Source: Amanita rubescens (taxonomy: Eukaryota > Basidiomycota > Agaricomycetes > Agaricales > Amanitaceae). Taken from it: 64,000 nucleotides of DNA. Position 1 is the first letter of the stretch. The number at the start of each line of letters is the position of its first letter. This document shows, one piece after another, positions 15,130 to 36,970 of this stretch. The stretch covers positions 91,061 through 155,060 of the forward strand of contig WION01000106.1 of NCBI GenBank assembly GCA_015039365.1, in the 5' to 3' direction. The notes beneath the pieces were generated by a model. The model saw only the letters and a program-made list of their open reading frames with translations, did no database searches and was not told the DNA's origin. The translations under genes and the position numbers were made by a program.

Positions 15130-15460
15130 TGATCATGCGTGATCACACCCCAAACGCATGGTCATTCGTTGGCAACGCGTGGCCACGTGTGGCCACGCGT
15201 TATCATGCGTTATCACGCATTACCACGCATGATCATGCATTGCCATGCATGATACACCCCTGATGAATATCCCAACAACCGAATGATCACGCGATGATCA
15301 TTCCTTAATATCCAAACAAACGAATGATCCGCGATGATCATTCATTATCCCTCCTAAAACTCCCACCTCGTCGTTGCAAAATAATCGTTAGCCTGATTTC
15401 ACCATGCGTTGCCTATGCATTGCCCACCCACAATCACGCGTTAATCACGCGTTGCCCAAT
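15130..15460. repeat. ACGCGT / GATCATGC-rich palindromic array in the LINE 3' region
   Basis: Short palindromic words (ACGCGT, GCATGC, TGATCA, GGCCAC) recur every 8-20 bases from just after the ORF2 stop. A similar array lies at 34430-34680. Both face the inverted-repeat block from outside. It may be a structured 3' UTR recognised by the LINE reverse transcriptase. Confidence 0.6.
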
Positions 15461-15655
15461 ATCATTGTCCTCATTAAATCCATCGTTAGTTTCTCAACTA
15501 TTGTAAATATAAGTACCATTTTGTATACGCCGCATTGCTACAATACTAATTATGTAGCAACCAACGATTTTTACTTCATACTACAATGTTGATTTGAGTT
15601 GTATTTATGTATAGAGGCACTATGTGAAGTAGCAATATACGATTAACAATGCGAT

Positions 15656-15920
15656 GCGGTCACTTGAAGACAATCATAGAACTGTACTCACCTTTTGCGG
15701 TTGCAGGGATTACTGAAAGATAATAGTTGAAGTTTCTCCCGTTCCAATGAGTAAATAGAGCCGTACTCACGTTCGAACGTGGTGTAAATACTGATGTGGT
15801 GACTGATAGCAGTGATAGCAGAATGATAACCAACCGAAATAAGGGTTGTGGTTCGCGCGGCCTAGAGTGACGCGTATTTTGAACTGTCATCCAACTCACC
15901 CTCCTCGAGTCTTCCGTCAT
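15656..15920 (-). pseudogene. Truncated left copy of the serial-intron gene
   Basis: ATG at 15920 opens MTEDSRRVSWMTVQNTRHSR, matching the 5' end of the plus-strand gene at 32804. The frame runs through the first donor site with the same intron sequence, then breaks off at the LINE junction. A one-base difference (GGTTGGTT here, GGTTGTT on the right) puts the two copies in different frames downstream. Only the 5' part remains. Confidence 0.6.
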
Positions 15921-16195
15921 GCATGAGTCATCTGCATTCTAATAGATTATAGTGTGCGGAACAGTACACGGACTTCCTCTTCTCCTGAGCCCCTGGTGGT
16001 TAGCGAGAATTTAAATAAGCAGAGTGAGATCGAACACACCTTCCCTCTGCTCACGGCGATGCAGTCACTTCAGGGAACGTCGTCGAATCAACTCAATCAT
16101 CCTTAAGAATACGATATATCAACGCCGGCGAGCGCGAATGGAACTGGCACTTGACCCAAATCGCTAACACCGATCATTATTCTCGTGACGTCACC
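15656..16195 (-). repeat. Left inverted repeat of the 18-kb block
   Basis: Read on the minus strand, it matches 32578-33057 from GGTGACGTCACG through TCGACGACGTTC, CTAACCACCAGG, GAAGACTCGAGGAGG and GTGAGTACGGCTCTATTTAC to GTGACCGC. By eye identity is around 85% over most of the length. It carries one extra segment of about 85 bp near 16090-16170 and several small indels. The outer end stops at the LINE 3' end. Confidence 0.85.
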
Positions 16196-16621
16196 CATTG
16201 CCCAATGTAGCTTGATCACATATATCATGAAACCAGTGGCAAAGCGCGGTAAATCTTCATCCCGGGACCTATCCCGTCTCCTAACAATAGCAGCCAAATG
16301 GTAATTTGAGTGATGAAATCATTTTCCCATCCACAGGCTTCACAGTCGGAAATCTATTCCTGAACCAGAACCCGAAAACGTATCAGGACCCTGAGACTTC
16401 GACGTAGAGAGTGTTAACATAACTTACATTAATACAACATAGCAATTGTTCCTTCGTTGATTGTGATATACCTTTCAAACCTTCAAGTCAAACCACATGC
16501 GACAACCCCAGCGTCGTTCCACCTCTGATCGCCTAAAAGAAATCAGACATCACGACCATCACACCAGATTTATATAACCCGCCTTTTCATTTACCAGAGC
16601 TACCTCCGTATCAGATAAATA
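16196..16621. other. Intergenic upstream of the LTR-broken gene
   Basis: No exon was found. This is presumably the promoter and leader of the gene starting at 16622. Confidence 0.3.
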
Positions 16622-16766
16622 ATGTCACCTTCCCAACCGCCTCATTATCACATCCTACACGATGACGAGTATGTATTCTCTCTATAACTGACCTACCACA
16701 ATGTTGCCTTGTCCTCACCACACCGTTAGACTCTAATCAGGATACGCCAACTGTGTCACATACCGC

Positions 16767-17100
16767 TGTAACAACGAAACGGAGACTGTGGTGTGCAGTC
16801 TCCGATGATCCGATGCGGCCGATGGAGTTCGGCAGCACCAAAGGGTGCTCGTCCACTTCGGTCGCACTCGTCGGGGCTCGGGAATAGTGAACTCAAGTGA
16901 GGGGTAGTAAAAGCTTGTATATCAAACTATCTACGACATGACTATATACTGTATGCCTCGTGTACTACATCCGTCCGATCCGAAACGGTTGAGTCCGACA
17001 CATCGGAGCTGTCGGAACTGTCGGAACAGGGTCCCGAGGTCGAGGGTTCGAGTCCGCGATGAGGTAGTGAGTACAACGTACCCGGAATCGGTACGTTACA
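16767..17100. repeat. Left LTR
   Basis: 334 bp, TGTAAC to GTTACA, apparently identical to 18778-19111. It contains GGTTCGAGTCC at 17045-17055, which matches the pol III B-box consensus. Confidence 0.9.
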
Positions 17101-18777
17101 CCCGCTCACCAGTTTTGAATGTTGACGTCACCGTCAACCTGCATCGGGTCGGTGGATGAACGAGGTGAAGTGTCGGAAGCGGAGTGTCCGAGTTGGAAGG
17201 GCAGCAGAAGTCCGTGATTGAACAAGACGGAATGTCGGCGTCGACGGAAGGGGCATCGGAGGTGAGACGTAGTGTCGACGGCGTCCGATTGTGCGTAGGT
17301 AGTCGCAAACAGGGGAGTCGGGGATGGCGATAGGGTTCAGGAAGTGTCGGAGGTCTCAGTGGCAGTCGGCGTGCTGCGGATGCTGTCGGGAGTGGAGGAG
17401 GGGCGTGTCGAGGTGCGGATAGCAGATGGCGTGTCGGCGGTGGTCATCATAGGCGGTAGAAAATGTCGGCGAGGAGGGGCGCAACTCCCCCGATCGCGGT
17501 CATCCCAGTAATCCAATCAAAAGCACTGACCCCTTGCATTGAGGCTGCTAAGTTGTTTCCTGAGACGCCGTCGGCGCAATACGGTATTAAAGAAAGGCGG
17601 AGGCGAAGTCGGTAAAATCGGCGGTGCTAGTCGAGTCATAAGGGGCCTAATGTGAGTCCTGCGTTGTGCGTACTGATATCCGTTATCCGAGTCTGTCCCA
17701 ACATCCCCCACACTCCGTTAACAATTTGAGGCGATAAGGCTGAGCGGAGGTGATGGCGATGGTGATGAGACGTGTTTGAGGGTCCTATGAGCATGAGATG
17801 TAGCCGTCTGAACGAATACGGCTACGCCGTATCCCGATCCTGGGTAGAAAGAAAAAAAAGGCTGAAAAAAAAAAAGATCTTGACTCGCATGCGTCGGAGG
17901 AATGGCGGTAGCATATGCCGGGTACTGGTGGCATCCGAAAGGCATAGGATGTGGCGGCGGACAGCTGTAGCGAGTGCGATACGTGAAAGGAGAGGCAGCA
18001 GCGTGATCTACACGAGGTGATAAGGCAAGGAGCGCAGTCCGAATAATGAAGGGTCGGGTTGGCGTGGAATAATGACGACTGGCTGGGATGTACTCCGAAG
18101 GTATCCGATGCATGGCGAAATGCGTGCTGCAAGGCGGCTTCTGCGGATGAGCTGCGATAGTGGCGGATGGGTTCCGATGGGCTGCGACTGCGCTGGGGTG
18201 CTCCGATAAGGCTGGGACGAAGACTGCGTCAAGCGGCGGGACGCGATACAGGGGTAGTGCATGCGGATGACACGTGCTGAAAGGTGGTGCATGCGGACGG
18301 TCTGCAGTAATGACTGATGGGATCCGATGGCTTCAATAAGGCAGCAGCGGTGTGTAGGCATCGAGTGGTGAGTCAGAGGAGCAGCTGGGGAACGATGTGG
18401 CTAGCAGATCGGAGTCGGTGAGTGCAAAGGGCAGGAGGGAGTGTCGCTGTGCATGTCGGAAGGTTGGAATGCAGAAGCAGGGGTGCGATGGCATCCGATA
18501 GCGGTGTGGCAGGCTGTAGACGTCGTGTGGTGTGCTTGGCGGACTTCCAATGGTATCTGATGGAATCCGATAAGGGCATGACAGACTGTAGACGTCGTAT
18601 AGCGGGCTCAGCGGGCTGAAATGCAGTGGCAGTGCGCTTTGGCGTGACCAGTAGGTGTATCGGCGAATAGGAATGAGCCAGTGGGGCCGTCCAGGTAGAA
18701 TGAGACCTCCGGGGTCGTTTATGAATGAAAAACGGGGTTGAGTGCGATCCAAAATGGACCGAGCGGTGGGCTCCAGT

Positions 18778-19111
18778 TGTAACAACGAAACGGAGACTGT
18801 GGTGTGCAGTCTCCGATGATCCGATGCGGCCGATGGAGTTCGGCAGCACCAAAGGGTGCTCGTCCACTTCGGTCGCACTCGTCGGGGCTCGGGAATAGTG
18901 AACTCAAGTGAGGGGTAGTAAAAGCTTGTATATCAAACTATCTACGACATGACTATATACTGTATGCCTCGTGTACTACATCCGTCCGATCCGAAACGGT
19001 TGAGTCCGACACATCGGAGCTGTCGGAACTGTCGGAACAGGGTCCCGAGGTCGAGGGTTCGAGTCCGCGATGAGGTAGTGAGTACAACGTACCCGGAATC
19101 GGTACGTTACA
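18778..19111. repeat. Right LTR
   Basis: 334 bp, apparently identical to the left LTR. An ATG at 18949 begins a frame that runs out of the LTR into the disrupted host exon without a stop, giving a 217-codon chimeric frame ending at 19602. Confidence 0.9.
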
Positions 19112-19602
19112 CCGCGGATGATGATTCTGACTTTTCTGAACCATCTACGCCTTCATACTCTGATTCTGACGACGAGATGTCGAACCCAGCCCTCGTTGAA
19201 CGCGTTCCGAGGTTTTGCTGGCTGCCGCCTTCTATTCCATCCGGCCGTTTCGTGTGGAATTGTCCAGGTTGCGATTACTTCATTGATTTTTTAGACCTCC
19301 ACGACGAGGATTTGGAACCACTGCCAGAAAATCTACGTCAGCATATGGCGAGCAAGGAATGGCAGTCAATCAAGGATATTGAGGTTCAAGATGCATTCTC
19401 TTTAATGGTCGACCGTCATTACGCTTTGCATATGCACCAAAGGGGCGTTCAACTGGTAAAAAGGGGTAAAAAGGTGAGCCGTCCGTCTCTACGCCAAGAC
19501 AATACTTGCAACTGGTTTCAGTGGTTTGTAGTGCCATATGAGTCACCGGCTCCGTCTGAGGATAACGGCGCCGCGTCGTCTTCTGTAAATGATCCAATAT
19601 AA

Positions 19603-20205
19603 CAGCGTTACTTTGTTGTAGAAACTATTCAATTGGTTCCCATCGTCAGCAGGAGAGTATACGAGCTATTGGTTGCACGGCCCGGACGCTACCATCCCGG
19701 CAGTGTTCTGATCCCTTTCTGTCAAAACGCGTGATCAGTTAATGCGTTGCCTAGGCGTGAAATAAATGATGCGGTCGACCGCCGTGAAGGCCGGTGACTC
19801 GCAACACCTGTTACAGCTCCTGTGCTCGTCCATCTCTCTTTGCGCAAGATCTATTTCCAGCATCCGCCTTGTCTCAAAATGATAAGGAAAAGGAATTGAA
19901 GGCCCCTGCCGTTGATCTCCCGATCAGCGGACCTAGCTCCGTCGGTGCACAACGGTTGGGTGTAATCACCTTCCTTTGTTCGTCGCGTACGGCTCGCCCG
20001 CCGGTATCTCGTTGCGGAAGATCTCTTCCCAGATCTCCGCCGCCCGAAATAATAGGGAATCGAAGGCCCCTCTCCCCTCTTCCGTTGATCTCCCGATCAG
20101 CGGTTTGCTTGATCACCCGTTCGCAGTGGTTAATTGCAGTTAATCACATATCCTTCGCCTCGATTCACGGTTGTAAATAACTGATCTAAAAATGTCCTCG
20201 ATCCA
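19603..20205. other. Intergenic with a degenerate direct repeat
   Basis: Two related segments, about 19845-19930 and 20012-20103, share GAAGGCCCCT and TTGATCTCCCGATCAGCGG in the same order. No gene was found. Confidence 0.5.
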
Positions 20206-23200
20206 TTACACCGGATCGCATCTCGCCAGTTTGCTCGCCTGTACAGTGCATATCGGTAACCCTTTGTGACCCCGACGACCCAGTGGAAAAGAGCCATCTT
20301 CCTTTTGCTTGCGAGTGAGGAATTGTTCGCCAACGTTTTCACCGCTGATAACAACTACGTCCTGCCCCCTAGATGTCGGTATCTGTGGGCATAAGAACCT
20401 GGATGGGATCATGATTGTCCGCTGCTTAACGTTCACTTCTATTTCGTTCTCCCGTTCACCGGACAAAATCAGGACCCTCTCCCCTTCATAGTAGCCCCTT
20501 GCAAAACCATTTGGGTACGCGTTGGAGTTACGAATGTGGGCCCATATTCGCTTGGTCACTAAGCCGTCTTTCATCAGCCAGTCAGCGGCATAAACTGTAC
20601 ATCATGAGCTCCAGTTAATACATCACACGCTAGGAGACCCACCCTGGTTTTCCTCTGAGACCGACGGTACAGCTGCCTGGTCATCGACCGTCGCGGATTC
20701 AGAATTAGGCAAAAGCATATCGAGAACGTCCCCGACCGCAACCGATTGGTCGATCTGCTCATCAACTCCTGGCGTCCTTGACCGTTCTGGCACTCTTATG
20801 AAATTGGGGATTCGGTATCCCCCCCTAGCTGGTTTTGGATAGAGTTCAGTGTAATATGTCTCTAGATCCCGACCCTTGTCGTCTCTATTATTAAATGAGT
20901 TTCGTCATGAATATATATACTCTTTCAGTCACTTACGCATTCATCAAGAAATTAACATGTAGATCCACAATCCGTGCTCCCGATCTCGCTTCGATGCGCA
21001 TAATCTGATTCCCAAGATGGCCTCGTATTCTGCCATATAACCCTTTCTCGGGAATGTTCCCGGTGACAAAGACCCACGTATTGATCAGCTCCTTATAACG
21101 ATCATACGAAGCCCACGGTTGGCGCGGCTGCTGCTGAACGCCTGCGGGACTGACGACATCATCCACCTCTAGGAACCAGTAAGGGACCGAGAACTATAGT
21201 AATCCGGCTGTCAGATATTTTCTAACACACTTTACACAGGAACAGACCTGCGTATTCGGTAAGTGGCCGACCACATCGACACGGCTGTCGGAGACGTTGC
21301 AAACTCGACCGTTTTGTTGGTAATATGGCGATATGGGCGCTATTACCTGCACCGTCTCACCGATTTGAATCTTCCGTTCGAAACCCCATTCAAAGCTATC
21401 GTATGGGATGAGTTGCCATGATTTCACTTGAAACTTTTCCCAGGTCAGTACTCGTCGGACAGCGACACAAATTCATACTTCTTCCTTCCGTCTGCGATCG
21501 AAAACATTTACCAGATCATCCTGGACACCTATTACCCATCCTTCACTATCAACGGGGGCCGATTTGACGACCTTGACTTTGTCTCCGACTTCGTAGAATC
21601 TTCGGACGCTATGAAGATGGACTTCATGCTCCTCCCGGGTGTCTTGCGTGCGCACTACAACTTCATCATGGCGAATGTCCTCGATGACTCCTTGGATCAT
21701 GCCCCCAATCAATTTAGCCTCCACTTTCTGGCCCATATCAAGAGGTGCGGCGAAATGATTCTCGTATGACCACCGTAAGAAGTCTGGATGTGGAGCCGAG
21801 AAGCCTAGCTGCTGCGCTCCGATGGCCATCCCTTCGCCGAACAACTTCAGTTCCCCTAATTTAGGCACGACACTCGCCGATCGCAGGGCTGCTGGAGGAA
21901 CAGAATAATATGCGAAAGGTGGCATAAAATTGTCCCCTCCCCTTACGCATTTTTTCCAGCCGCGTCTAGCTAGCTGGTACACGCCAGATACCACCCTCTC
22001 CAGCTCGTATCTTTTCTTCGGAACCCACCACACGTTTGGCTCGATTATGTGCATTATGTCAAGTGCCTCCTGTGGATCTCCAAGCAGTTTAGGATGCAAA
22101 AGTCGGGGCAAGCGTTTTTTTCTTGGTCGTTTATGTTCTTCGCCCTGCCTCGGTTCGAGAGAAGCGCCGCTATCGATTGGTACCAATAAGCGCGGGACAA
22201 GGCAGATCAGGACCAACGATTCCGTCAACCATCCGCACACGTATGCCAGATCCTTTCCGTATTTTATTAATCTCTTGTCAAAATGTGGCTCTATCCGTAG
22301 CAGATCCTTCAATTCGCATTTCCTCTTGAGTCTAGCCCATGATGGAGAGGTCACAGCGGGTGTGGGTTGATGATGCCAGTCCAGCGAACGCACACGTTCT
22401 TCGACGGGTACGAATTCGATTTTCAACGGGTGAGGCATCGTGGACAAGTGGTTACACAGATCTTGTACGTTCTCTCGTTTACTCGCTTCTACGAAGATCC
22501 AGGTCCCACTGCCTGGTGGCCAAAATACCGAAATGGCCAAGTTTGGGCGAGCCTTGAGACGATCCGAGAGGACAAAGAGGCTTTCTTCCCCAGTACCTTC
22601 CTGCAACGCCAACGCGTTAACAGTAGCTCTCCCCATGATTAAAACATGCTCACCCATATGCGAACCCTCCAAACGCCTGGATCAGAAGGCATGGGCATTC
22701 GGCTTACAAGCTCTGTCAAAGAATCCACCACGTCCGACTTTGGTGGGGCGGAATCGTTGGTCGCCTCAGATGCGGCGTTCCTGGCCTCGTAGCTTGAAAT
22801 CACGTCCAACATGCGATGATCCTTGGGCAAGTCCTCCCAGTAAACTCCCGGTTCAGCTAATGCAACATGAGTTATCCCGGGCTGAACAGAATACGTGTCC
22901 GTCGACTTACACTCAGCTTCGCTTTCATCCTGGCTACTTTCTGATTCTTCCGAATCCCCCGTTTCTCCTACGTTATCGTCGATGAAGTCCCCGATTGCTG
23001 AGATAATATGAGCAATAAAAACATGACTTTTTTCGATAGTTTAAACTCACCCTCGTCTTCAAAATCTGCCCACTCTTCTCCGGATCCACTGTCTGCCGCT
23101 TCTACGTCCAGGAATTCAGTTGCCAAAGGCTTCTAAGAAATGGATCAGTGAGGACTTCTGCGTTAGTGCCTCCCGTACGTACCGCAATCCTTCGTTTCTT

Positions 23201-23304
23201 GCGATTATCTCTCTCCACCGGACTGTGGGTTCGTTTGTCATTCTATTAACAAGCTTCAGAGCTTTTCCGCATGCGAAACTCTAGCGTGTTACCTGGGCGC
23301 TCAT
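20206..23304 (-). CDS. Spt5-like protein with NGN and several KOW-type segments
   Basis: Rebuilt from a 12-nt first exon (MSAQ, ATG at 23304) to TAA at 20206-20208. Exons join in phase through introns of about 45-60 nt. The N-terminus is strongly acidic (GDSEESESSQDESEAE). Next comes an NGN-like part: PGVWRVRIWEGTGEESLFVL, then GSGTWIFVEASKRENVQDLC. KOW-like segments follow, e.g. GQKVEAKLIGGMIQGVIEDI, VGDKVKVVKSAPVDSEGWV, IGETVQVIAPISPYYQQNG and a C-terminal GQDVVVISGENVG. In Spt5 these bind Spt4 and RNA polymerase II. This copy is divergent and lacks the C-terminal phospho-repeat region, so it is probably a paralogue rather than the essential elongation factor. One junction uses a weak GTCTCC donor (about 20645). 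Confidence 0.75.
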
Positions 23305-24052
23305 CCTTCACGATTCTGTCCTTCTCTAAATAAAGGACAGTCAGTATCTGACTTATGCCGTCAACTCATGAACGCTCTCGACCACTCAAGCTTTATCTCA
23401 TGCCAAATGACAAGACTTACTATTGATGTCTACTGGAATGCTCAAGTGTAATAATACGCGTTCTACTACGGTACACGATGCTACTGATGGAAGTACGAAA
23501 GAGAAAACGTAAGGTTTTCGCTCGCTTAAGTACACGCGTTACGTTGCTGTTGGCACATTGATGGGGCGCAAACTGTTAACGTTAGGCTACGTTAGGTTGT
23601 TGAGAATCCCCGAGAATATTCGGGGGAATCGGTCCTGTCAACAAACCCAAACGGCATCGTTGACGTGGCTTAAATAGGACGGGAAACTCCGGATGCCCTT
23701 CCTTTCGTCCCCCGTCGTACCAGACGGGGCATAGTATTCTACGCGATGCCGACGACATTCCTGTATAATAAATAAAAGTATATAGCAATGCAATGTCATG
23801 AACTTCATTCATTTCCTGTAGAGGAATAGCACGCTCATCACGAATCCGAAGCTGGTTGTCAAATGACTGATTGTTGAGAGACGGCCTGTAAACCATGAAT
23901 GTTGCAGTGTTTTCCTGTCCATGTTTCATTGCTCGAAGAAGAGAGATTGTGAGCTAGGCGACTCTACATTCTTTTGCATTGAGGGCGACTTCGACGAGCG
24001 TTATATTGATCATGCAAATGTGCCCGCCTCGTCCATTTATAGAAACCAGTAT
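23305..24052. other. Intergenic, no supported gene
   Basis: A minus-strand frame at 23582-23929 has no splice or motif support. Palindrome-like CCCCGAGAATATTCGGGGG lies at about 23608-23626. Confidence 0.3.
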
Positions 24053-24470
24053 CAACGATCGTCCGGATATGGTATACGTCGGGCGTCGGCATCCAGGCTG
24101 CCTCCTAGTGGGGGCGTCCAACTAATGACGCCCCCACGTTCCAAGAGGGTATTTCATTACGCAGGTGACTTCGACGTCCAGAGCGCCTCCTAGTGGGGCG
24201 TATTGCGCTGGGAGCAGGTCAGGTAAGCTGCAATTGCATTACTCCTTTTTACTGAAAACACGATCGTACGGATAGGGTATATGTCGGCGTCCAGATCGCC
24301 TCCTAGTGGGGGCATCCAACTGATGACGCGACGCCCTTTCGTACAATGAGGGTACGCCATTGCGCAGGTGACTTCGACGTCCAGATCGCCTCCTACTGGG
24401 GCGTATTGCGCAGGGAGCTGGGCAGGTAAGCTGCAATTGCATTGTTCGGATTACTCCTTTCTGAAAACGA
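24053..24470. repeat. Two tandem units of about 210 bp
   Basis: Units at about 24053-24258 and 24259-24470 align along their length. Each has two copies of a GCCTCCTAGTGGGG-type box, GCAGGTGACTTCGACGTCCAG and a TAAGCTGCAATTGCATT end. They lie between the convergent-free 3' ends of the two minus genes, so they could act as spacer or regulatory DNA inside the candidate element. Confidence 0.75.
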
Positions 24471-24580
24471 TCCAAGTTCAGGGGACATAGAGCTTTGTTT
24501 GATACTATGCTAAAATATAGTATATTTCTCGTTAGAATGGTACGCCATTTAATTTGCGACGCTTATTCCAGCTTGTCTGA

Positions 24581-26490
24581 CTACTCCTTTGCCTTCCCTC
24601 CCAACGCTTTTAGCAGTTTGTTAACGCTGCCATTAAAATTGTATAAAGACGGAAACACGGCGTCTACCTCATCGAGCCGGTCTAGCGGGGTAAGGAGTAT
24701 TTCTTTCAGCGAACGCAATAAGGCTTCACTCTCTTCTCCCAGGCTTTCTTTTCCCTTCCCTTTCTCGGCCGTCCGAAGACATCTGAGGGCGCGCATGTGC
24801 AACGATCTGTGGTTTTCAAAAGTGGAGGGTGCTGGAGCTGAATCGTTGTATCCCCAGGAGGCTAATTTCTGACCATAAAAAAGCACGATTTGGTCTACGC
24901 AAGCCATCCAAGCTCCATGTTTCACCAGGTTTTTCTGGTACACCGGTACTCGATCGCGGTATGGAATCCCTATGCGTTCGCACGCCGCTTCCACGAGCCT
25001 TGCAAAGACGATCGTGGAAAACACCGTGCCAACTCCCGGCTGCTGGAGTACATGGTGCTCGTATACCCGCAAGTTCTCTTCGATTTTCATCGCAACGAGA
25101 TATTTAGATATTTCGTCCGTCAATTGAGGACGCGCTGTCTCTTTGGTCAAAACGACATTGACTGGGAACGATGGCTCCAGACGACTGGCAGCGCCTAGGC
25201 CGGAATTATTGATGGACGACGCATCCTGACCCTCTCCGGCCCGCCTAATTTGATTGGCGTACGAGGGTTCTTCAGATAGAAGTTCAAACATATACACCAC
25301 CAAAATTGGAGTGGTGCGTGGAATGGTGGACCCCACGAATGCCCGTATGTCTTCGCTTTCTTGACAGTTGTCGCATGGGACTAACTGCCGCATTAGCTGA
25401 GTATCAGCCAGCTTGCCCAATAATTCCGATTGGTCGCCCCATTTGCCTCGAAACTTGGCGATCTGTGCGGTATGCAGCGGTTTCTTTGCAGTCCGTATTT
25501 CGACAGCATCTGACTTCATTTGCGACAAACGTGCACGCAAAGCACGGGCTTGGGGTTCGTCCCGGAGGCAATCCAGGACCTTGGCTACGGTAGGGCCATG
25601 ACCAAGTGGCAACAAAACGACTACCTGTTCGATTTCACCAGACACATTTTGAAGACCAATGGCTACGATCCATGGCTCGCCCTGGTTACGTTGAGCGCTG
25701 GCACCACCGGCACCAGTGGTTTGATCGTTCGCCGAGGTCACTGCAGAAGTCCCGTTATGAACCGATGTCGTATCAGCATTGGGCGGCGGGACATGGCTGG
25801 CGGTGGTGGCAGTGGTTTGATCGTTCGCCGAGGTCACTGCAGAAGTCCCGTTATGAACCGATATAGTATCAGCATTGGGCGGCGGGACATCATGGCTGGC
25901 GGTGGTATCATCATTAGATACCACATTCGTACGCGATGCTGGACGATCTGTCGCGCGTGGGACACGGCTGGTGGATTCACCATTAGATACCGCATTCGTA
26001 CCCGATGCTGGACGATCTGTCGCACGGGGGATCGGCATCCCCAGCACTCGCATCTCCTCTAGAAGCTTCTTATCGAACTTTTCTCCCATCTCAACCGCTT
26101 CCTTTAACGTCTTCTCTAAAAGTTGATCGCTGGATCCACACCAGAATATCTTATTTTCTTTCCATTCTTTGGCGTCATTCGGTTCGCCGACTCGTTGAGG
26201 GATTTGGGCGGAGTGGTTAGTGACCGGCTGGGATCCTATCCAGCTCTCAGATTTGGATTGAGCATGACAACCACTTCTGCAGACATACCTGTGGGTGGGG
26301 CCTGTGATGGGAGGTGTTCTTCAGTGCCATCTTCCCCGTTGCCCATGATGGGGGTACTGGATGGCGCGACAGCAGCGTCATTGGGTGGCCCCGTGGATCC
26401 GACTGATGGCATGGTTCGTTCTGTAAGAGGTATAAGACTTTCTGCGGGATTGAGTGCAGGGCGACGCTGTCGGCTAGAATGTCGTCGCAT
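24581..26490 (-). CDS. Unrecognised 618-residue protein with internal repeats, divergent to the integrase
   Basis: ATG at 26490 (MRRHSSRQRRPALNPAES). One 55-nt intron, ending GGATAG near 26233, joins in phase to an exon that runs to TAG at 24581. The N-terminal 70 residues are basic and Pro/Ser-rich. A repeat region follows: PRATDRPAS twice, and a roughly 30-residue unit with VPPPNADT, SVHNGTSAVTSANDQTT twice (DNA 25718-25910). The C-terminal 380 residues are globular, with IVAIGLQNVSGEIEQVVVLL, a CDNCQES stretch and a Lys-rich helical end. No domain recognised. Its start is only 95 bp from the integrase start, so the two probably share a promoter. Confidence 0.8.
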
Positions 26491-26584
26491 AGGGCTGGGA
26501 GGAAAGCAACAACCTGAAAAAAAATTATTCCGTGTATTTAAATTCCGCCAGAAAGCGAAGTCCCCTCGGCCCGTCCAGTTTATC

Positions 26585-28650
26585 ATGGATCCCACCCAAG
26601 CTCTGATAGCGACATATGAAGACCTATCCAGACGCGTCCACCTCTCTCTTCGCATCCATCAAGGAGATGGCGTGCGCCTTCAGGACCAGTTAGACGAAGT
26701 ACGTGCGTTTGCGGTAGACGCCGAACGGGTATGTCAAGATAATTTATCTTAATGCGAGACTCTCACGCAATGCAGGCGCAACACGTATTAGAGCAAGAAG
26801 AATATGAATTCCTACATGCCAATATTAACCAGATGATCGAAGTTTTAAACGCGGCCGTCGGCCACCCGCCTCACGCCCGGTTGGTCGTGAATCGTGCCGA
26901 TGCTCTGATAAACGCGTACGAAGACATAGCTCAACGCGTAGCCCTCTCCCTTCGCATCCAAAATGGAGATGTCACTCGACTTCGGGCCCAATTGGACGAA
27001 GTACGCGCTTTTGCTGCTGATGCGGAACGGGTACGTGAGAGTCATCTTATGTACAATGTGAGACAATGTGAGACATGTGCTCTCATGTAGGCACGAAACC
27101 TATTGGAACAAGACGAATATGATTTTTTACAAGTGTCGGTTAAACGGATGCTGGAAAGTTTAAATGCATCCATAGCGGCAGCTCTAGACGACGCAGAGAG
27201 GGATCCGTTGCCATTGGCTCACAGAGAAGGGCGGCCGCGCGGAGGTCGACCTCGTACCGTGATAGACAAGAAATTTCTGTCATTCGCGAGTGCCGGAATG
27301 ACGCTAATCGACATTGGCAAAGCTGTGGGGTGTTCTGCCCGAACTGTTCGCCGACGCCTTATTGATTATGGCCTTGCCGAGCCCGCGCCACCCGTCATCC
27401 GGAACATTGTTCGAGCTGATGGGACTGAAGCCAAGGAGTGGCATCCTACTGGACCGACGCGTTTTGACTTCAAAGGTGATCCGGCGGGTCTGGATCGCTT
27501 AGTGGGAAGCATTCTAGAATGCTTCCCCAACTACAGTCTAATCTCGGTCAAGGGTGATATCCGATCCCAAGGTTTCACTGTCCAGCGAGATCGCATACGG
27601 GACTCTTTGATCAGAGTGCGAGGGTTGCAACCCCGCTTCGTCAACCGACCTATCCAGAGGCGAGTGTATTCGGTCCCAGAAGTAAATTCCTTGTGGCATC
27701 ACGATGGAAATCATAGTGAGTCCGCATTTGTTCGTGTTTCTCCAGGCTCGTGCTAACTGGCTTTCAGAACTTATTCGATGGAAATTCGTGATTCACGGCT
27801 TTATCGATGGTAAATCCCGCTACGTGACGGGAATAAGATGCAGCACGAACAATAGGGCGGCCACCGTTCTAAACGTCTTTGTAGAGGCTGTTACAAAAAA
27901 TGGCCTTCCAAGTCGAGTCCGTGGGGACCATGGAACGGAAAATGTCCGAGTGGCCGCATACATGATGGAGCAACGAGGTGAAAATCGCGGATCATACATA
28001 TGGGGAAGGTAAAGCGTTGACAATCGAGAGCGAATAATGCAAGCGTTGAACAGAGATTTAGGTCCGTGCACAACATTCGGATTGAAAGGTTATGGGTAGA
28101 AGTGGGACGTATCATCATCGCGAAGTGGAAACCCTTCTTCCGAGCTCTGGAAGAGGAACACGGACTGCGAGTGGATTCAGCTGCGCACCTATGGTTGTTG
28201 CATCACCTATTCCTTGCCAACGTAAACGATGACATCCAGCGATGGACGGCGCAATGGAATTCACACGTCATGCGACTCAAGGGACAGAGGAACCAGGCGC
28301 CGCGGGATATGTTCATGATTGGGTTGGCAAGACGCATGGCTGTGGATGACATAAGGATACAAGAGGAGGACGTCCGCGATCTGGGCCAGTTTGGTATTGA
28401 TTGGGAAGATATGGACGATGAAGATCTCATTCAGGCGTTGCAAGAGAGGGGCGAGAATCCCTTCGACGATTACGCGCCGGACAGGATGAACGATGTGCCG
28501 TGTGAACCACCGGACTGCCCATTGACTATGGATCAAGTGGACGGACTGGACGCTGTCCTTCAAAGGGAATTTGACATGAATACTTACGACATGGACGTAA
28601 AGACTAGGGTCTGGATATGTGCTCTCGTGTGGTGCCGAGACCTATTCTAA
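26585..28650 (+). CDS. rve/DDE integrase with duplicated coiled-coil exons
   Basis: Five exons: 26585-26728, 26776-27030, 27091 to about 27715, one spanning about 27767-28009, and a last exon to TAA at 28648-28650. An unit reading YEDxxxRVxLSLRI then QLDEVRAFA occurs twice, split each time by an intron at the same place. A helix-turn-helix ([20 protein letters not shown]) follows. The catalytic core has Asp in WHHDGNHK, Asp in RGDHGTENV and Glu in HNIRIERLW, with 34 residues between the last two. This resembles the rve-like integrase core proteins scattered through fungal and animal genomes. It is intact and splice phases agree, so it could be active in moving the surrounding block. Confidence 0.85.
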
Positions 28651-28794
28651 ATAGCTCTTAATCTATGTCGTAGTAGAGTAGAAGAAGCTCAGTATTGCAT
28701 TCAAGTCATCGTATACGGAACTGTGAGAGAACGCATCATCTCATTAATTCTGCCGTTTACTGACGCCAAGTACAATTTTACATGTATGAACAAT

Positions 28795-31700
28795 TTAAAT
28801 TGCGTTATAATCATTCGCCGAAGAGGCCATCAAGACGTGGAACCACAGATCAAAGATAGTTTGCGCTTTGTCGTTAGGTTCAAGGAGCAAGTTCTTGACA
28901 TCCGGATCTAAAACAATGGACATCTCTTTGAAGCAAGTGTGGATCACCACAGACGCTCGGTGTCGAGAAGGGAGCAGTGACGGCATATATTTCAGGCGTA
29001 GCTGAGGCAGGGGTTAACAAGGGAAGGGTGGCAAGAGAACCTGGACAACGACTTACCGTGACGTCTTGGTCCTTGTTCGGAGGCAGGACGACCATGTCAG
29101 ATACCGCCTTCCAAAACACTTCGGCCCTCGTGGTGTGCGGTGATTTCAAACTGCTTTCGTATTTATCCTTCGCCACGACGCTTCCGACTAGCTGACGTGG
29201 ATGGCCCTTACCGCGGATCCAACGGTAGAAACGTATGATAAATAGCTGAGCGTAAAGCCTGGCCTCCCGCTCGTGTTGACGTTCACACCCGTAACGAAAG
29301 GAAATCCGGTTGAAGACGTCATAATAGGATTCGATCCTGTTGTTCCAGAGAGTAGACACCAGCTTGAAGGCGTATAGGTACATGTCGTTTTGTGTATCAA
29401 AACCCACGTCAGTGACGAGAGAGCCGATCAAGGTATGCATACGGAGTCCCTCGGTGAAAGCTAGGAATTGATCATGTTCCCATGGTTTCCCAGTTCCAAC
29501 GAGCAGGTCCGACAGGATGAGGTGCATGAAGTTCTTGTGTTGAGCTTCATCGAGAGGGTCCATAAATAGACCGGCAGGAGAAAGATCCTTCTCCACCGCT
29601 CGTTGGCAGACTAGATTTTTGGCGATTTTTGCCGGGTCGAGTTTTTCCCCAACTGGGAAGACAAGTGCCGCAGCAAAAGTGTCGCGTGTTGACTTATCCT
29701 GGATCATTGCGAGCAGGTGGTTGGGGTGGTAGTCTTTATAAGGGTGCAAGAGGAATTCAAGGCACGCAGGGCTATTGAAGAGAGCGGCGTACACCAGGAA
29801 CGGGTTGATCGGGTGGGGCTCCACTAGGAGTTGAATCATCACCAGGGCAGTTAAAGAACCGTCTACCTGGAATTCTACCTTTCCTCTGGTGGGGTGAAGA
29901 CCGGGAGGATGACCGAAGTTCAAAGAGCTATATGTTCCTTGGAAGGAAACCCAACGTTTGGAATCGTTTAGGCGCATGGTCAAAGCTCCCTGGTAGATAC
30001 TTTGCGCAGGGCCGTCACCGTTCGCGCCGGCGGCTTCTTCACCTCTGAATCCACATCAACGGGTGTTTCTGCGAGGTACATTGCCACTTACAAGACAAAA
30101 GGGCGAAGAGGAGTCAAAAGCCCTCGCCAGGACTTGATCTCACATTCAACGGGCGGTATCGGCTGGTATTGGTGCGGGCCCGCCCCCATCGTCAAATGTG
30201 CAGGCTTGTTTTTCCTATCGTCCACCTCGATTCTCCACACCCTCACCATATCGATTAACGTCTGCGAGGCCTCCTTGAAAGTGGGGGCTTGGATGGTGAA
30301 AGTTTCTTGGCCACTTTGGGCCCGAAGGTGGTTCTGCCACGCTTCGAGGGTTTTCATGTCGAGTCGAAGAAGTTTCTGCTCGTCATCGTCGTTGTCGAGT
30401 AGGGCTCTCAAGTTGTTCAGAACCGGGGATTCCACGGGATCATATAAGCTATCATCTATAAGGTGGCCGTCCCTCTCAATTGCCATATCATCACCGCGAG
30501 GAGGGTTCACAATTTGGACCTCGTCGTCTTCTTCAAACTCTTCCTCTTCAATATCTGCTTTAGGCATGGCGAGCTCGGCGGGGACGTCTCCATCGTCTTC
30601 ATCGTCGTCTTCATCATCGTTCATGTCTTCATCATCTGATACCTCCATATAGTCCGGCTTGGCGAAGTGACAGCGTGGCGCCTGTGGGGAAGGTATGAGA
30701 ATAGGAATCATGGCTCAAACCATGACCTACTCTAGGAGATGGAGAACGATCATCGCTACTCCTTTCTTCATCCGTTTCCTCCTTAGAATTGGTTGGACGC
30801 TGTCTGACATTTCGGGCATTAGGCTGTTGAGATTGGTTCAGAAGTGGGACGGGCGTTTCGTTAATGTCCTTACCGTTGTCGAAGGGGATCGACGACGACG
30901 GAGAGAATTACGGTTGGGGCATTCTCTATTAATACAACGGCTCCCTTGGACGTTCGTTTTGAGATTAAGCCATTTGAAATGCGCCAGTAGACGCCATGGG
31001 AAGCAGGCATGGGCGAGGTGACAGAGGGGCGCGTCCCTATCCAGGTTAGAGACGGGACCGCGGAGGTTGCCCTCTGTCGGCGCTAGTACGGGAGTTGAGC
31101 GGAAGACACGTTGAGGACAACGGGGCAAACACATACCGAGCAAGACACAAGAAAGCTTGCGGCCAGTACTCTCTATCTTCACCTCCGTTGCTTGGCGATT
31201 CAAGAATTGGACCGTAAAATTACCGAGGGCGGCTAATCCGGTTTGGAAATTCTCTTGGGCCTTCGTTTTACGACCCAAGACGTCCCAAGCCAATGAATTG
31301 AAGGTGTTGCCATCGTCTTTGTCTGAACGTTTAAGCTTGAATTCATGCGTCCTTAGGTGCTCGTGTAAAACCCGATCGATTACCTTCCACGGTTCTGGCG
31401 TGTCTGGAGTCAAATTCACAGGAAATATCAGGTTGTGCTTAGATAGCAAATCGACTACCGCTCCGAATTTCCGCTCGTTGAACTTCGGTTTGGGCGGCGC
31501 ATGTCCCTCGTACGAAGAGGTAATGTCACACTGTATCTGAAGTTAGTGAAGAGGTTCTAAATCCGTGACAGAGGCAGACGCACAACAAAGGGCCATATTA
31601 CGAAATTAAGTTCAATGGCTGCAACAACGTGTTCGGCAGCAGCGAGTCGTTCCTGATGGGGGCGGGTCCCTCTGTTGCGATTTTGGGAATTCCTGCCCCT

Positions 31701-32375
31701 ATGTTTCTCAGCTGCCTGGATTCGATCCCGATTGGCGGCGTTGACGGTGGAAGGAGGAGGATTGGGGGTCGAGGAGCTATAGGTGTCAAACCCCCGTACT
31801 CTCCCAATGACATCGGTGTACGCGTGTGCCGGAGGGGCGCGCGCCACAGTAGCCGCATCTATGTCGTGCTCGGATGGAGCCCCAACGACATCGGTGTACG
31901 CGTGTGCCCGAGGGGCGCGCGCCACAGCAGCCGCATCTGTGTGCTCGGATGGAGCCGAGACAAGCTGCTGGTGGCTTCCGTACGGCTGGCCACAGACACA
32001 AGGTCGACGGTGCCCTTCGTCCTATTTCCTTAGACATAAGTTACTGACGTATCTGATAGTTCACCGAAGCCCTACCGCGGGATGATACCCTCCACAGTGG
32101 CTCAAGGGGCAACCACCACATGCTGTGGAGGCCGAACTGGCTGGTATGTGCATCCACCAAGGATGCTTGCAGACGCATCCCTCGTTAGGGTTATTAGCGA
32201 CGGTTCGGACTCCAGGAAAAATTGCCAAGGGGCAGTCGCAGTTGTGCCAAGCGCATGCCTCGCGTTCTGGTAAAGGCTTTACGGCGGGCATGAGAGAGGG
32301 GAGCAAGGGATGCGTAGAGAGAGGCTTTTTTTTTTTCATGTTTTCCCGTTCCTCGGATAGGTTCTCCGAGCACAT
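28795..32375 (-). CDS. Large unrecognised protein with Cys-rich N-terminus and acidic centre
   Basis: Start ATG 32375 (MCSENLSEERENMKKKK), stop TAA at 28795-28797, about eight exons, roughly a thousand residues. The N-terminus looks zinc-binding, with CAWHNCDC, CVCKHPWWMH, CGGCPLSHCGGYH and CVCGQPYGSH. A direct repeat around VARAPPAHAYTDV follows. The middle has LAHFKWLNLKTNVQGSRC and then a long Asp/Glu run (SDDEDMNDDEDDDEDD). The C-terminal 400 residues are globular (MRLNDSKRWVSFQGTYSSLN through PHTTRAEVFWKAV). Introns are phase-consistent. It converges on the integrase gene (145 bp between stops). No known family recognised; its position suggests it belongs to the same element. Confidence 0.75.
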
Positions 32376-32402
32376 GCCGTAGACGGGCCCCGGCCGTGGG
32401 GG

Positions 32403-32687
32403 TTACACTTTTTCCGCGTTGTCGCAGGTAACTTTGGAGCTCGGGATGCCCGGGTAGCCGCCCCACCTCAAATGGGGACATGAATTCAAATAGATATGTG
32501 TTTCTCCGTACATCCCCAAGGAGTCGTAGTGTCTATTCTCTTTTAGGAGATCAGCAGTGGATGCGTTCGGGGTATTCGGTGACGTCACGGGAATAATGAT
32601 CAATTGAGCTGATTCGACGACGTTCGCCGAAGTGACTAGTAGGAGGCATCGGCGTGAGCAGAGGAAAAAAGGTATATTCGATCTCAT
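32403..32687 (-). CDS. Small ORF inside the right inverted repeat, possible signal peptide
   Basis: 94 codons from ATG 32687 (MRSNIPFFLCSRRCLLLVTS) to TAA. The start has a hydrophobic segment with basic flanks. The left inverted repeat has the matching DNA but with GTG in place of ATG and a roughly 85-bp insertion, so the frame is not conserved there. It could be an upstream exon of the large minus gene or a chance frame. Confidence 0.3.
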   Translation of the reverse strand: MRSNIPFFLCSRRCLLLVTSANVVESAQLIIIPVTSPNTPNASTADLLKENRHYDSLGMYGETHIYLNSCPHLRWGGYPGIPSSKVTCDNAEKV

Positions 32688-33057
32688 TCTGGTGGTTTAA
32701 TTTATCACTAACCACCAGGTGCTGGGGAGAAGAGGAAGTCCATGTAATTCAGTGGTAGCAGTACATTAAGGACACCATTAATGTATTAGAATCCAGATAA
32801 TGCATGACGGAAGACTCGAGGAGGGCGAGTTGGACGACAGTTCAAAATACGCGTCACTCTAGGCCGCGCGAACAACAACTCTTATGTCGGTTGTTATCAT
32901 TCTTCTATCAGTCGCAACATCAGTCATTACACCACGTTCAAACGTGAGTACGGCTCTATTTACTCATTGGAACGCGATATACTTCAACTATTATCTTTCA
33001 GTAATCCCTCCAACCGTAAAACGTGAGTACGGCTCTATTGCCTTCAGTGACCGCGAG
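32578..33057 (+). repeat. Right inverted repeat of the 18-kb block
   Basis: Reverse-complement partner of 15656-16195. It covers the beginning of the minus ORF at 32403-32687 and the 5' exons and first introns of the plus gene at 32804-34196. On this side the plus gene continues beyond the repeat, so the original repeat may have been longer. Confidence 0.85.
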
Positions 33058-34196
33058 AATCAATAAACACAGTCCTTTACTTCTACCATCACCGATCACC
33101 CACCACCACTACAAAGTTTCGTAGCTAGACCGTAAAAAAGTAAGCGCGGTCTTATTTGCTCTATTGACCGCAAGAATTGACTTTCAGCGTGTTAGAACGT
33201 GACTGCTTCCTCCACCACCACAATCGTTCAGTCACCGCTTATAAAGGTGAGTACGGTCTTGTTTGCTTTGAATGACGGCGAGGACTTATTTACTTAGCAC
33301 TCGTCTTCAACTACCACCAAGTCCGTCCGCAACAAAATGAAGTTTGACACTGAAAAGTAAGTACCCGGGTCAACGTACAATGTATTAATCTTCTTACAGT
33401 CGCAGACTGCTGGCGTCTACGCAGGAAGGTAGCGAGAGAACGGTGGACTACGGTAACGGTTCTCCGGTGAGTGTCGAATCCTTCGTTCTGCGTCGTTTTG
33501 CTAACGGGTCATAGCGTGTGCTCCTTTCCTCTTCGTCTGGTACGCCCGTACTGGATTTCAACGCCGAATGCAGGGAAAGATTCGTACAGGAAGATGGCGA
33601 GAGAACGGTGGATCACTCTCCGGTGAGTGTAAAATCCTTCGTTGTCCGTCGTTCTGCTAACGGGTCATAGTCTGTGCTCCATTCCTCTTCGTCTGGTGGC
33701 CCCATACTCGATTTCAATGCCGAAGGCAGATTCAACACCGAAGGCAGCGGGAGATTTGTAGGGACAAATGATCACGGTAACGGTTATCCAGTGAGTATCG
33801 AATCTTTCCTTCTCTGTCATTTTGCTAACGGTGCCATAGCCTGTCTTCCATTTCTCCTCGTCTGGCAGCCGCGTACTCGATTTCAACACCACAACTCTTT
33901 CACACATAAATAACTTATCTGCCCCACATGTTCCTCAGAACGTTATGTCGCCAGATACGACCGACACATACGAGAACAGCTCCGGCGTCGAAGGCGATGT
34001 CGATTACGATACCAATGGAGATGATACCGACACAGACGCGTCGCAGTTCAGTATTCCGCGCTGCACAAGCATCGGGCGCAATGACGTCTACGACGCCGAT
34101 ATAGACGATAGTGGTAGCGTCTATCATAACCTCGAGAGTGACGACGGCTATGACGCCGATGATGAAGATGATGGAGACAATACCAACAGCATCTAG
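32804..34196 (+). CDS. Unrecognised protein from a gene with serially duplicated introns
   Basis: Starts MTEDSRRASWTTVQNTRHSR at 32804 and ends with a strongly acidic tail (DGYDADDEDDGDNTNSI, TAG at 34194-34196). Seven or more introns of 48-58 nt fall into two look-alike series. One starts GTGAGTACGGTCT (32944, 33023, 33140, 33247). The other starts GTGAGTGTCGAATCCTTCG and ends CTAACGGGTCATAG (33467-33514, 33623-33670, 33791-33839). Exons between the second series repeat SSSSGxPxLDFNAE. The last four exons join in frame; phases at the first few junctions are uncertain. Function unknown. Confidence 0.55.
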
Positions 34197-34429
34197 GACC
34201 GTTTGTTATTGGTTTCCTTGACCGCACGCTCTCCTTCTTGCTATCTTGCTATCGAAGAGTCATTGGGGACTCACTGTACATACTAGTTGTTTTTATACGC
34301 AGTGCTTTCTTGCTATCGTATTAGGATTCTATACATATAGATGTTATCAATTATAATAGTATTATGTATTTACAATTGCGGCAACTACGTGAAATGCAAT
34401 GTATTTTAACGTACATATCTAATCTCATG
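34197..34429. other. AT-rich spacer
   Basis: AT-rich DNA without frames. Read on the minus strand it loosely resembles the AT-rich tail of the LINE 3' region (15480-15650), sharing ATTGTAAATA, so it may be the end of an inverted LINE relic. Confidence 0.3.
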
Positions 34430-34680
34430 GTAATGCGTGGCGATGGGTGGCCAACGCGTTAGCCACGAGTGGGCAACGAGTTGGGGAAATTGGGGATTTG
34501 GAAGGTTAATGAATTATCATGTGCGACCCACGCACTACTTTTGGATGGATTCGTTACCATGCATGGGACAAAAAAAATGGGAAAATGACCATAATGCATG
34601 GCCATGCATGATAACGCGTGGCCACGCGTGGTCATTAATTGGCCACGCGTGGGATGGATGATCACGCACAATTTTTCCCA
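34430..34680. repeat. ACGCGT / GCATGC palindromic array, second copy
   Basis: Dense ACGCGT, GGCCACGCGTGG, GGCCATGCATG and GATCACGC words, like those at 15130-15460. The minus strand beyond it (34681-34715) reads GCGAAATTGGACCAAACCTAA, close to the LINE ORF2 stop region. This is probably the 3' region of a related LINE in minus orientation. Confidence 0.5.
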
Positions 34681-34687
34681 ATGTTTA

Positions 34688-35439
34688 GGTTTGGTCCAAT
34701 TTCGCGCAACATAAGCGAGACATGACAGACCTCAAAAAGCTCTTAGGAAATGACAGCAACTTGACGTACATCACCACCTTTGTCAAGAAAACAAAATGGA
34801 TACCGTGGACGTTAAAACAAGATAAAAAACAACCAGCGCAAAGCAACCTGTTTAATGGATACATGACACACGAACGGCAGGGGAACAGGCGCTTAGCACC
34901 AAGGGAACGAAATGCCCAAAGCAACAGGGAACACGCAACGGGAGACGGGGCTCGAAGGGTAGAAGGAGAATGGAACACATATGACAGAGGAGACATACGC
35001 AGTTGGCTAACGAGCAACAGAGGCAGCGAGGGGGCAAGGCAAAGTGGGAGGGAAAGGACCGAGGGGGAAGGCAGAGAGGGTGAGGCAGGGCGGGGTGATA
35101 CCACTGGCGGGGAATGGGGACGAAGTGGTGGGAGGTGAGGCGAGGTGAGACGAGGCAGAACGGGAGCGGGGTGATAAAAGACGGGGCAAGGCAACGATGA
35201 ACAATGCACAGTGAGTGTGCGCTTCTACCATCTAACCACACGACCTTCCGTCGTAAACACCATTTCAATCCCACACTACGCACCAACTACGGGGCGTATT
35301 CCTCAGCGGATGATGAAGACAGTGAAACACAGGTATATTACAAAGATGTATTCTACATACGATCATGCCCTACCATGCGCTACGAGCGCCATGGGGCCTA
35401 AACAAGGAAGGAAAAAAAAAAAAAAAAAAAAAAAAAAAA
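34688..35439 (+). mobile_element. 5'-truncated LINE tail with 28-nt poly(A)
   Basis: A plus frame starting NFAQHKRDMTDLKKLLGN and containing YITTFVKKTKWIPW has the look of the last residues of a LINE ORF2. It runs on as a basic, Gly/Arg-rich frame to about 35138. Positions 35412-35439 are 28 consecutive A, and F-box coding sequence follows at once. The shape is that of a 5'-truncated LINE insertion. The first 25 bp overlap a possible minus-strand LINE end, so the left edge is uncertain. Confidence 0.55.
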
Positions 35440-35440
35440 C

Positions 35441-36970
35441 ACGGTCGCCTCAAAAATACCTACCGAAACGCTATGTGATATATTTCTCCTCCTATGCGAC
35501 GGGCCTATTGCTCTCCACGAGTTGAGGAACATATCGCGCTCCCACGAGTTCCCGTGGGCCGTAGGACAAGTTTGCAGGCACTGGAGATGGGCATTTGTGT
35601 ACTACCCAGCTTTATGGTCCGCTCTCTCTTTCGAGGAACCCCAGCCCGAGATCCGTGACCTTAGTGTTACTTACGTCGCTGAAATGAACCGACGTGCGGA
35701 AATATACCTCAAACGCTCCAAACAGCAGCCTCTCACCTTACTTGTTAGCGTACCGGGTCCGACAATCAACGACAAAATTTATTCACCCATTTGGGGAATG
35801 TTGTTATCGTGCTCAGATCGTTGGAAATGGGCAGATCTGGATATAGAAAATCAGTCCCTGATAAATGGTCTTGTCGAACGCAGGAAGAAAATGTCGATTC
35901 TCGAGTCGCTGACAATCGTTATATACGATATCCAAGATCATAAGTACGGCACCGCCTTCGAAATCGCGCCGCACCTCACCCAACTAAACCTGAACTATGA
36001 CAATACGAGAGACGCGGCATGCGGGACGTTGGAAAGATGGCCGTTTCCCTGGGCACAGTTGACCAAGCTCACGATAGACCAACCCTATCTAGAATTTGCT
36101 AACAGTGATGCACTCCGATCATTTCTACTTCAGTTTCAAAATGTCGAAGAGCTACACTTCGACGTATTTTTCGTCGATGTTGATTCTGACATTCCCGAAT
36201 GTCCAGCTGTTCGCTTTTCTCGTCTCAAACTCTTTGGAATCTCGCTTGCTGTTTCCTGGATGCTTTCATTCTTTGAAGCGCCCATACTGGAACATCTCTC
36301 CGTCTGCGACGGTTTTGAGGACATGAATGACCATAACCATGTTGAAGAAATATTATCTTTTGTCCAACGTTCTTCCTGTCGCATTCGCCGCTTGTCACTT
36401 CAAGATTGTACGGCCGATGTGGCTCAGAACATCATGGAGGTGCTGGACCATGTGGAGGGGCTCTCCGTCGAGCCATATTTCGATGTGCAACCGGGATACG
36501 CCCATTGCATTATACGGGACATCGCAGACTCCGGCGGCATCTGTCCCAACCTGCAGCTGCTGGAGGTGTCGTGTTGTCCTGGATACTTTGATGATGTTGT
36601 ACTGGCAGCGACTTGTGTTCTCAGTGCACGGTGCACGGAATCGAGGTCCAGGCGCAGCATTGTGCCACTCAAGAAATTAATTATCACAGTAGATTGGGAT
36701 GGTTGCAACTGTGGCCACTGCAGTGCTTTGAACAAGGCATCAGGAGCCATTGATACGGCATTGAAACATATGTGCCTTCACCCATCTTTCAGTGTCTTTT
36801 CTCTTGACAGTGACAGGTGGGGCCGTACATTGACCGTTCATGCTTCGATTGCTGGCGCCCAGGTTGATCTTACTATCCACTACCCCGACGATCCCAATGC
36901 ATACCAGTACTACTCTGAGCAAAGCTGCAGACACATTAGTATTTTAGAAAGTGAACGCACACAGGAATAG
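35441..36970 (+). pseudogene. F-box protein gene, beheaded by the LINE poly(A)
   Basis: An open frame of 509 codons starts directly after the poly(A) and ends TAG at 36968-36970. It opens inside the F-box (TVASKIPTETLCDIFLLL, then VGQVCRHWRWAFVYYPALW), as in agaricomycete F-box proteins that link SCF ubiquitin ligases to targets. The remainder is LRR-like. There is no ATG in this frame between the stop at 35399-35401 and the F-box, so the native start and leader are missing. Translation would need a spliced or non-ATG start. The rest of the frame is undamaged, which implies a recent insertion. Confidence 0.75.

Follow-up and report, generated by a model that had tools for sequence, protein, structure and literature searches.

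A 64,000-bp window of the Amanita rubescens genome (contig C9, positions 91061-155060; labels of this kind denote contigs of the 75.7-Mb, 786-contig assembly of the single genome analysed here) contains an integrase gene and several unfamiliar genes enclosed by long inverted repeats, raising the question of whether they form a mobile element and, if so, where such an element ends, what moves it and to which known kind it belongs. A previous sequence-only reading of the window had proposed an undescribed large transposon delimited by those repeats. Comparison of the window with the rest of the assembly points, with high likelihood, to a DNA transposon of ~17.3 kb (19.6 kb here, including a long terminal repeat (LTR) insertion) that lies in a long interspersed nuclear element (LINE) and is bordered by a 6-bp target duplication. 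Its own DDE integrase, working on short terminal inverted repeats, is the likely agent of movement. We propose a DDE-type DNA transposon because precise ends, terminal inverted repeats, duplications, empty sites and an intact transposase are all found; the copies at other loci, the duplications and the empty sites likewise bear out the earlier proposal of a large transposon whose integrase travels with other genes.

The extent of the element was defined by two near-identical copies on other contigs, which together with the window element constitute family A. The region C418:88969-106233 aligns with window positions 15101-34713 at 99.9% identity, save for a 2.3-kb insertion in the window, giving a copy length of 17,265 bp against 19,613 bp in the window, and C164 aligns with positions 19111-34713, also at 99.9%, its contig stopping soon after. 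The flanks outside the shared block are unlike among C9, C418 and C164, and we place the true ends at 15101 and 34713 because copy identity stops there and the flanks differ. The three copies are separated by 16 substitutions and zero length changes over 15,603 aligned bp, leaving aside one column with a placeholder base; family A has spread recently. The two terminal sequences form imperfect inverted repeats of 27 bp (Table 1), with one terminus TATG and the other TTTRCTCC, and the same end types occur in the diverged families C and D and in a set of small copies. The target duplication that the sequence-only reading had suggested looking for, AGCGAG, adjoins the window element on both sides and occurs once in uninterrupted LINEs on C96 and C13, while the C418 copy is bordered on each side by CTATGG(T). 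Short words are concentrated next to the ends: in family A, TGATCA occurs seven times in the left 500 bp and once in the right (versus 0.28 per 500 bp inside) and ACGCGT four times in the right 500 bp (versus 0.46 per 500 bp inside), and in family C TGATCA occurs six and seven times in the two end regions, versus 0.15 inside. The 2.3-kb insertion, an LTR element absent from the C418 and C164 copies, has LTRs of ~333 bp, 300 bp of which are identical; no reverse transcriptase was seen in it.

The window element interrupts the second open frame of a LINE with endonuclease, reverse transcriptase and RNase H, the upstream part of which (11131-15129) includes the reverse transcriptase and RNase H, and the remainder of which, as judged by eye, continues from 34714 to a poly(A) near 35410. 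When the window flanks were joined with a single AGCGAG, the resulting sequence matched C96 and C13 over 200 of 200 bases at 100% identity, so that the empty site of the window element is seen directly in two intact LINE copies. Full-length matches were also obtained on C257 (99%), C522 (90%) and C69 (87%); the search returned 13 places in all, including the element's own two flanks, a partial match and five places with 77% identity across 194 bases. The joined C418 flanks matched C578 and C93 over 300 of 300 bases at 99%, among 32 places at lower identity or partial length, two being the copy's own flanks. The empty sites of the C9 and C418 copies are paralogous, not allelic. On C35, C42 and C719, the family C copies have a 3' piece of the same LINE directly against their left end.

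The spliced integrase model, assigned to Pfam family rva_4 (E 7.9e-66), contains the residues D338, D395 and E430 with 34 residues between the last two, as the sequence-only reading had noted, and is predicted from its sequence to be catalytically intact. Among the best 120 of 414 homologues, 112 retain D, D and E, and the 34-residue spacing is the commonest (99 of the 115 sequences counted, query included). Those of these 120 that carry an organism name are fungi, all of them presumably from mushroom-forming lineages. Against PDB sequences the integrase gave weak matches alone, the best being a retroviral integrase core (E 0.089). The rva_4 integrase family thus appears to be present in many mushroom genomes, and hence the transposase would not be new. 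A diverged tandem duplication (26572-26852 and 26874-27167, ~67% identity) spans the N-terminal integrase exons and an intron position; family C has a single unit in its place.

The integrase recurs through the genome together with the other genes of the element. Places were counted for each protein from searches of its own genome, rows belonging to one place being merged by hand, which yielded 32 integrase places (from 32 rows), 42 for P5 (72), 27 for P3 (42) and 54 for the Spt5-like protein (73); these counts are not independent, some contigs being haplotype duplicates or ending within an element. Within 16 kb of the 32 integrase places, P5 was found at 28, P3 at 26 and the Spt5-like gene at 17, with P5 and P3 both present at 24 and all three partners at 16. 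By simple arithmetic, chance would place P5 beside fewer than one of the 32. The gene set recurs at other loci of the same genome, a recurrence that the earlier reading had proposed to look for. In the reverse direction, an integrase lies within 16 kb of 25/27 P3 places, 27/42 P5 places and 17/54 Spt5-like places; because of this last proportion the Spt5-like gene is not tied to the element, and some of its places may be host genes. In a single 8-kb stretch around one Spt5-like place lacking an integrase, on C759, nothing telling was seen.

All four genes are common to the diverged subfamilies. Family C, exemplified by a 17.7-kb copy at C35:782688-800412, runs collinear with the window element at 36-69% amino-acid identity in the compared stretches, and between families A and C the proportion of nonsynonymous differences (pN) is below that of synonymous differences (pS) in all four genes, the corresponding rate ratio dN/dS being 0.09-0.41 with dS near saturation. 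In the most diverged group, integrase identity falls to 41-48% over most of the exon and gene order is altered, for example to P5, P3, integrase on C27.

One of the co-travelling proteins is Spt5-like. On its own it scores 21.8 bits against Pfam NGN, just under the cut-off of 22.4, but a profile built from 11 relatives matches SPT5 chains in PDB at E 2e-17 over the NGN and KOW stretches, which strengthens the resemblance perceived in the earlier reading. The 11 matches came from a protein search in which 7,993 candidates were scored, and nine are from A. rubescens. The best Foldseek matches of a low-confidence structure model (mean predicted local distance difference test (pLDDT) 45) are chains from elongation complexes of RNA polymerase II (Pol II), and the profile search names several of these chains as SPT5. 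This cargo protein is thus a predicted Spt5 homologue, with NGN and KOW in Spt5 order; in these domains it resembles Spt5, the large subunit of DSIF, from which it differs in being encoded on a transposon, in an NGN domain that alone stays below the Pfam cut-off and in its 54 merged places. P3 has no Pfam match, and short tandem duplications (24085-24443 and 25714-26031) lie inside or beside its gene. For P5, a search scoring 7,987 candidates gave three matches, two from A. rubescens and one from A. brunnescens (76% identity over 69% of the query); the annotated protein P0121 and our P5 model differ at their N-termini, and a structure prediction from three sequences reached a mean pLDDT of 27. 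An impression from motif order that P5 might be a HECT ubiquitin ligase was rejected: it has no Pfam or PDB-profile match of that kind, P5 places are missing from the 34 HECT matches of the genome, and hhalign gave a probability of 0.7% against one HECT sequence.

Table 1. Features of the window element, in window coordinates.
Feature	Position	Strand	Description
Whole element, C9 copy	15101..34713	+	19,613 bp; block common to C418 and C164
Left terminal inverted repeat	15101..15127	+	TTTACTCCGCGAAGATGGGCCAAACCT
Right terminal inverted repeat, inward reading	34687..34713	-	TATGTTGCGCGAAATTGGACCAAACCT
Target duplication AGCGAG, left copy	15095..15100		
Target duplication AGCGAG, right copy	34714..34719		
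Integrase (rva_4)	26585..28650	+	617 aa, 5 exons
Integrase exons	26585-26728, 26776-27030, 27091-27715, 27768-28008, 28062-28650	+	
Spt5-like gene	20206..23304	-	9-exon model, 897 aa; NGN then KOW-type domains
P3	24581..26320	-	Open frame, 579 codons; first ATG gives 24581-26089, 502 aa
P5	28795..32291	-	8-exon model, 1046 aa
Left subterminal region, TGATCA/ACGCGT-rich	15128..15600		Putative transposase-binding sites
Right subterminal region, ACGCGT/GGCCAC-rich	34214..34686		Putative transposase-binding sites
Internal inverted repeat, left arm	15656..16097	+	In family A
Internal inverted repeat, right arm	32603..33054	-	In family A
LTR element in left gene	16767..19110 (or 19111)	+	~2.3 kb; in C9 copy only
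Small left gene	16623..19602	+	Sketched, ~190 aa, acidic; interrupted by LTR element in C9 copy
Small acidic right gene, last open stretch	33945..34196	+	Sketched

The conserved ends bracket further copies, including some that share the ends alone and not the genes. Patterns derived from the ends of the small copies, with up to three mismatches allowed, matched 54 and 40 places in overlapping lists and, in reversed form, 0. They flank both sides of the ~14.0-kb gene cluster of family D, represented by C57:350487-364518 (duplication GATATAT), C223:1487033-1501072 (duplication CGTCATC) and a C645 copy of similar length without a duplication, and they also enclose 39.9 kb at C3:40388-80323, where the two end types are bordered on each side by GTTCCCA and Spt5-like and P3 matches lie inside. 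One small insertion is present with the same flanks on two contigs (C34:9209-9868 and C780:5749-6408), which suggests that parts of the assembly contain both haplotypes; copy counts are therefore inflated. Both junctions could be compared in 20 copies (C9, C418, C35, C318, C277, C49, C719, C109, C599, C473 and ten more, the latter being hand-chosen pairs from the listed ends), and an exact 6-7-bp duplication on the same contig was found in 13. These represent 12 distinct cases, since C34 and C780 are one insertion: seven have 7 bp (C418, C57, C223, C3, C599, C473 and C109) and five 6 bp (C9, C34/C780, a small C57 copy, C737 and C4), the C418 case also allowing a 6-bp reading in which the element has one more T. 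In family C, duplication halves match across contigs (TACACAG, GAAGAAG and CTCAAG), suggesting either unphased haplotypes or near-identical repeats that were joined crosswise. In the stretches examined, C14 and C162 each showed one end, with no second end found, and the C135 copy had its left end outside the stretch.

Among published elements, IS3EU transposons come closest. They have TA..TA termini and usually 6-bp target duplications, as described in the relevant passages of PMC10045372, and fungal members can carry TET/JBP and alpha-kinase genes according to passages in PMC10045372 and PMC12730594; the name also appears in mushroom repeat annotations (PMC8955403, PMC12411881). As far as those passages describe the IS3EU/GingerRoot kind, the likeness extends to an integrase-like DDE transposase, short terminal inverted repeats, one TA terminus, extra genes in fungi and, in part of the copies here, 6-bp duplications. 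The differences from the same descriptions are that the TA..TA rule does not hold for the second terminus (TTTRCTCC), that 7-bp duplications make up 7/12 distinct cases against the usual 6 bp, and that Spt5-like, P3 and P5 genes stand where TET/JBP and alpha-kinase genes are found there. Set against the published description, the element would be IS3EU-like, IS3EU being its nearest known kind, and probably not a member, because one terminus breaks the TA rule and duplications of 7 bp are no rarer than those of 6 bp. The Styx element of Zymoseptoria, in the passages of PMC10853768 devoted to it, measures 7.9 kb and has four open frames, encoding an IS3EU-like transposase and GATA, CCHC and DUF3577 proteins; it has inverted ends and 6-bp duplications and is reported to move in crosses, by a movement that its authors consider non-replicative (PMC10853768). 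The window element shares with it, on that account, a multi-gene composition in a fungus, the IS3EU-like transposase, inverted ends and 6-bp duplications, and differs in size and in its Spt5-like gene, none being among the contents reported there for Styx. Styx would be the best functional precedent. Searches of open-licence papers, with subscription papers and Repbase entries outside their scope, listed no account of an element carrying these genes, the Spt5-like gene included. The earlier label "undescribed" was too strong for the transposase, given the rva_4 family and the published IS3EU and Styx elements.

The captain of Starship elements is a tyrosine recombinase (DUF3435), and Polintons, or Mavericks, carry DNA polymerase B, capsid and packaging genes. 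Pfam scans of nine frames and of four proteins of the element gave no match to a DUF3435 tyrosine recombinase, to a KDZ or Plavaka transposase, to a Rep/helicase, or to Polinton DNA polymerase B, capsid or packaging genes. Starship, KDZ, Plavaka, Helitron and Polinton elements, on definitions that are partly general background and for KDZ and Plavaka come from passages of PMC12730594, resemble the window element in being large mobile elements with cargo, and differ from it in their enzymes, the place of which is taken here by a DDE integrase.

We propose that the integrase binds the terminal inverted repeats, and perhaps also the word-rich subterminal regions, and would join the ends to target DNA across a 6-7-bp stagger, the same integrase also moving the small ends-only copies. 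By analogy with Styx, cut-and-paste would be preferred over copy-out. P3 and P5 probably act in transposition or in regulating it, and the Spt5-like protein probably helps Pol II transcribe the element, perhaps against silencing; these are the least certain steps, and for the Spt5-like protein it is a guess that such help would consist of elongation through silenced, or long and intron-rich, element genes. A further-reaching proposal, tentative and on balance unlikely, is that of a mushroom transposon superfamily, ranging from 0.66-kb remnants to 40 kb, that brings its own Spt5 for Pol II transcription through host silencing, as a transposon-encoded counterpart of DSIF.

Several observations weigh against a self-mobile element with this gene set. 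P5 is missing near 4/32 integrase places and P3 near 6/32, an integrase is near just 17 of the 54 Spt5-like places, and neither an integrase nor a P5 match is listed for the 40-kb element on C3. No same-contig duplication was found in seven of the 20 copies with both junctions (C35, C318, C277, C49, C719, C645 and C101). The case for mobility is one of sequence comparison, and the roles of P3, P5 and the Spt5-like protein are ones that we infer. It is conceivable that the integrase alone is the machinery and that the Spt5-like, P3 and P5 genes are passengers without function in transposition, as the 37 Spt5-like places without an integrase and the small copies made of ends without these genes would allow; we consider this quite improbable, given that P3 and P5 accompany the integrase even at 41-48% integrase identity and in changed order, and that pN is below pS in all four genes.

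The long inverted repeats from which the inquiry started are genuine, with 80% identity along a 470-column alignment (E 7.7e-122 for the comparison inside the element), although somewhat shorter (~450 bp) than the ~500 bp first given to them: the inner edges placed at 16195 and 32578 run slightly past the alignment. That they bound the element, from 15656 to 33054, is nevertheless hardly credible, since copy identity extends out to 15101 and 34713, where it ends at a pair of short inverted repeats and a target duplication; the long repeats are internal, ~0.55 kb and 1.66 kb inward of the true ends. Nothing corresponds to them in the family C element, collinear as it is, and for this reason they appear to be a peculiarity of family A or of some families. 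An endogenous virus or a virus-like relative of Polintons could account for the integrase, the large size and the ~6-bp duplications, which Polintons have in common with it, yet Pfam scans of the main frames and models detected no DNA polymerase, capsid or packaging ATPase, and P5 found no match in one scan of viral contigs, leaving this explanation very improbable. Lastly, segmental duplication of a cluster of host genes is an extremely improbable explanation: genes with introns and long, near-identical copies would suit it, but not the precise ends, the target duplications or the empty sites in copies of the LINE and of the other repeat. The DDE transposon with its own integrase accordingly stays the reading that we favour.

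Mushroom transposons that are large and carry several genes have been little charted. Here, the exact ends and empty sites, together with the recent copies and the small derivatives, make movement of the element directly testable. Proteins annotated as "integrase core domain" in mushroom genomes may mark its relatives. An Spt5 relative in a transposon would be unusual, and a transposon-borne Spt5 family at 54 merged places, some perhaps belonging to the host, raises the question of whether part of the Pol II elongation machinery has been captured by mobile DNA.

Relative to gene order, family C has the two end types exchanged in comparison with families A and D: its TATG-type end lies towards the Spt5-like gene, whereas in families A and D that end lies towards P5. 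A swap of this kind could arise by recombination between inverted repeats like those of family A. As to the genes enclosed by the long repeats, the sequence-only reading is borne out in part: the Spt5-like gene, P3, the integrase and P5 lie between them, and two further small genes near the ends are sketches and not checked gene models. Beyond the right end of the element, the open frame 35402-36970 may encode an F-box-type protein, a resemblance judged by eye.

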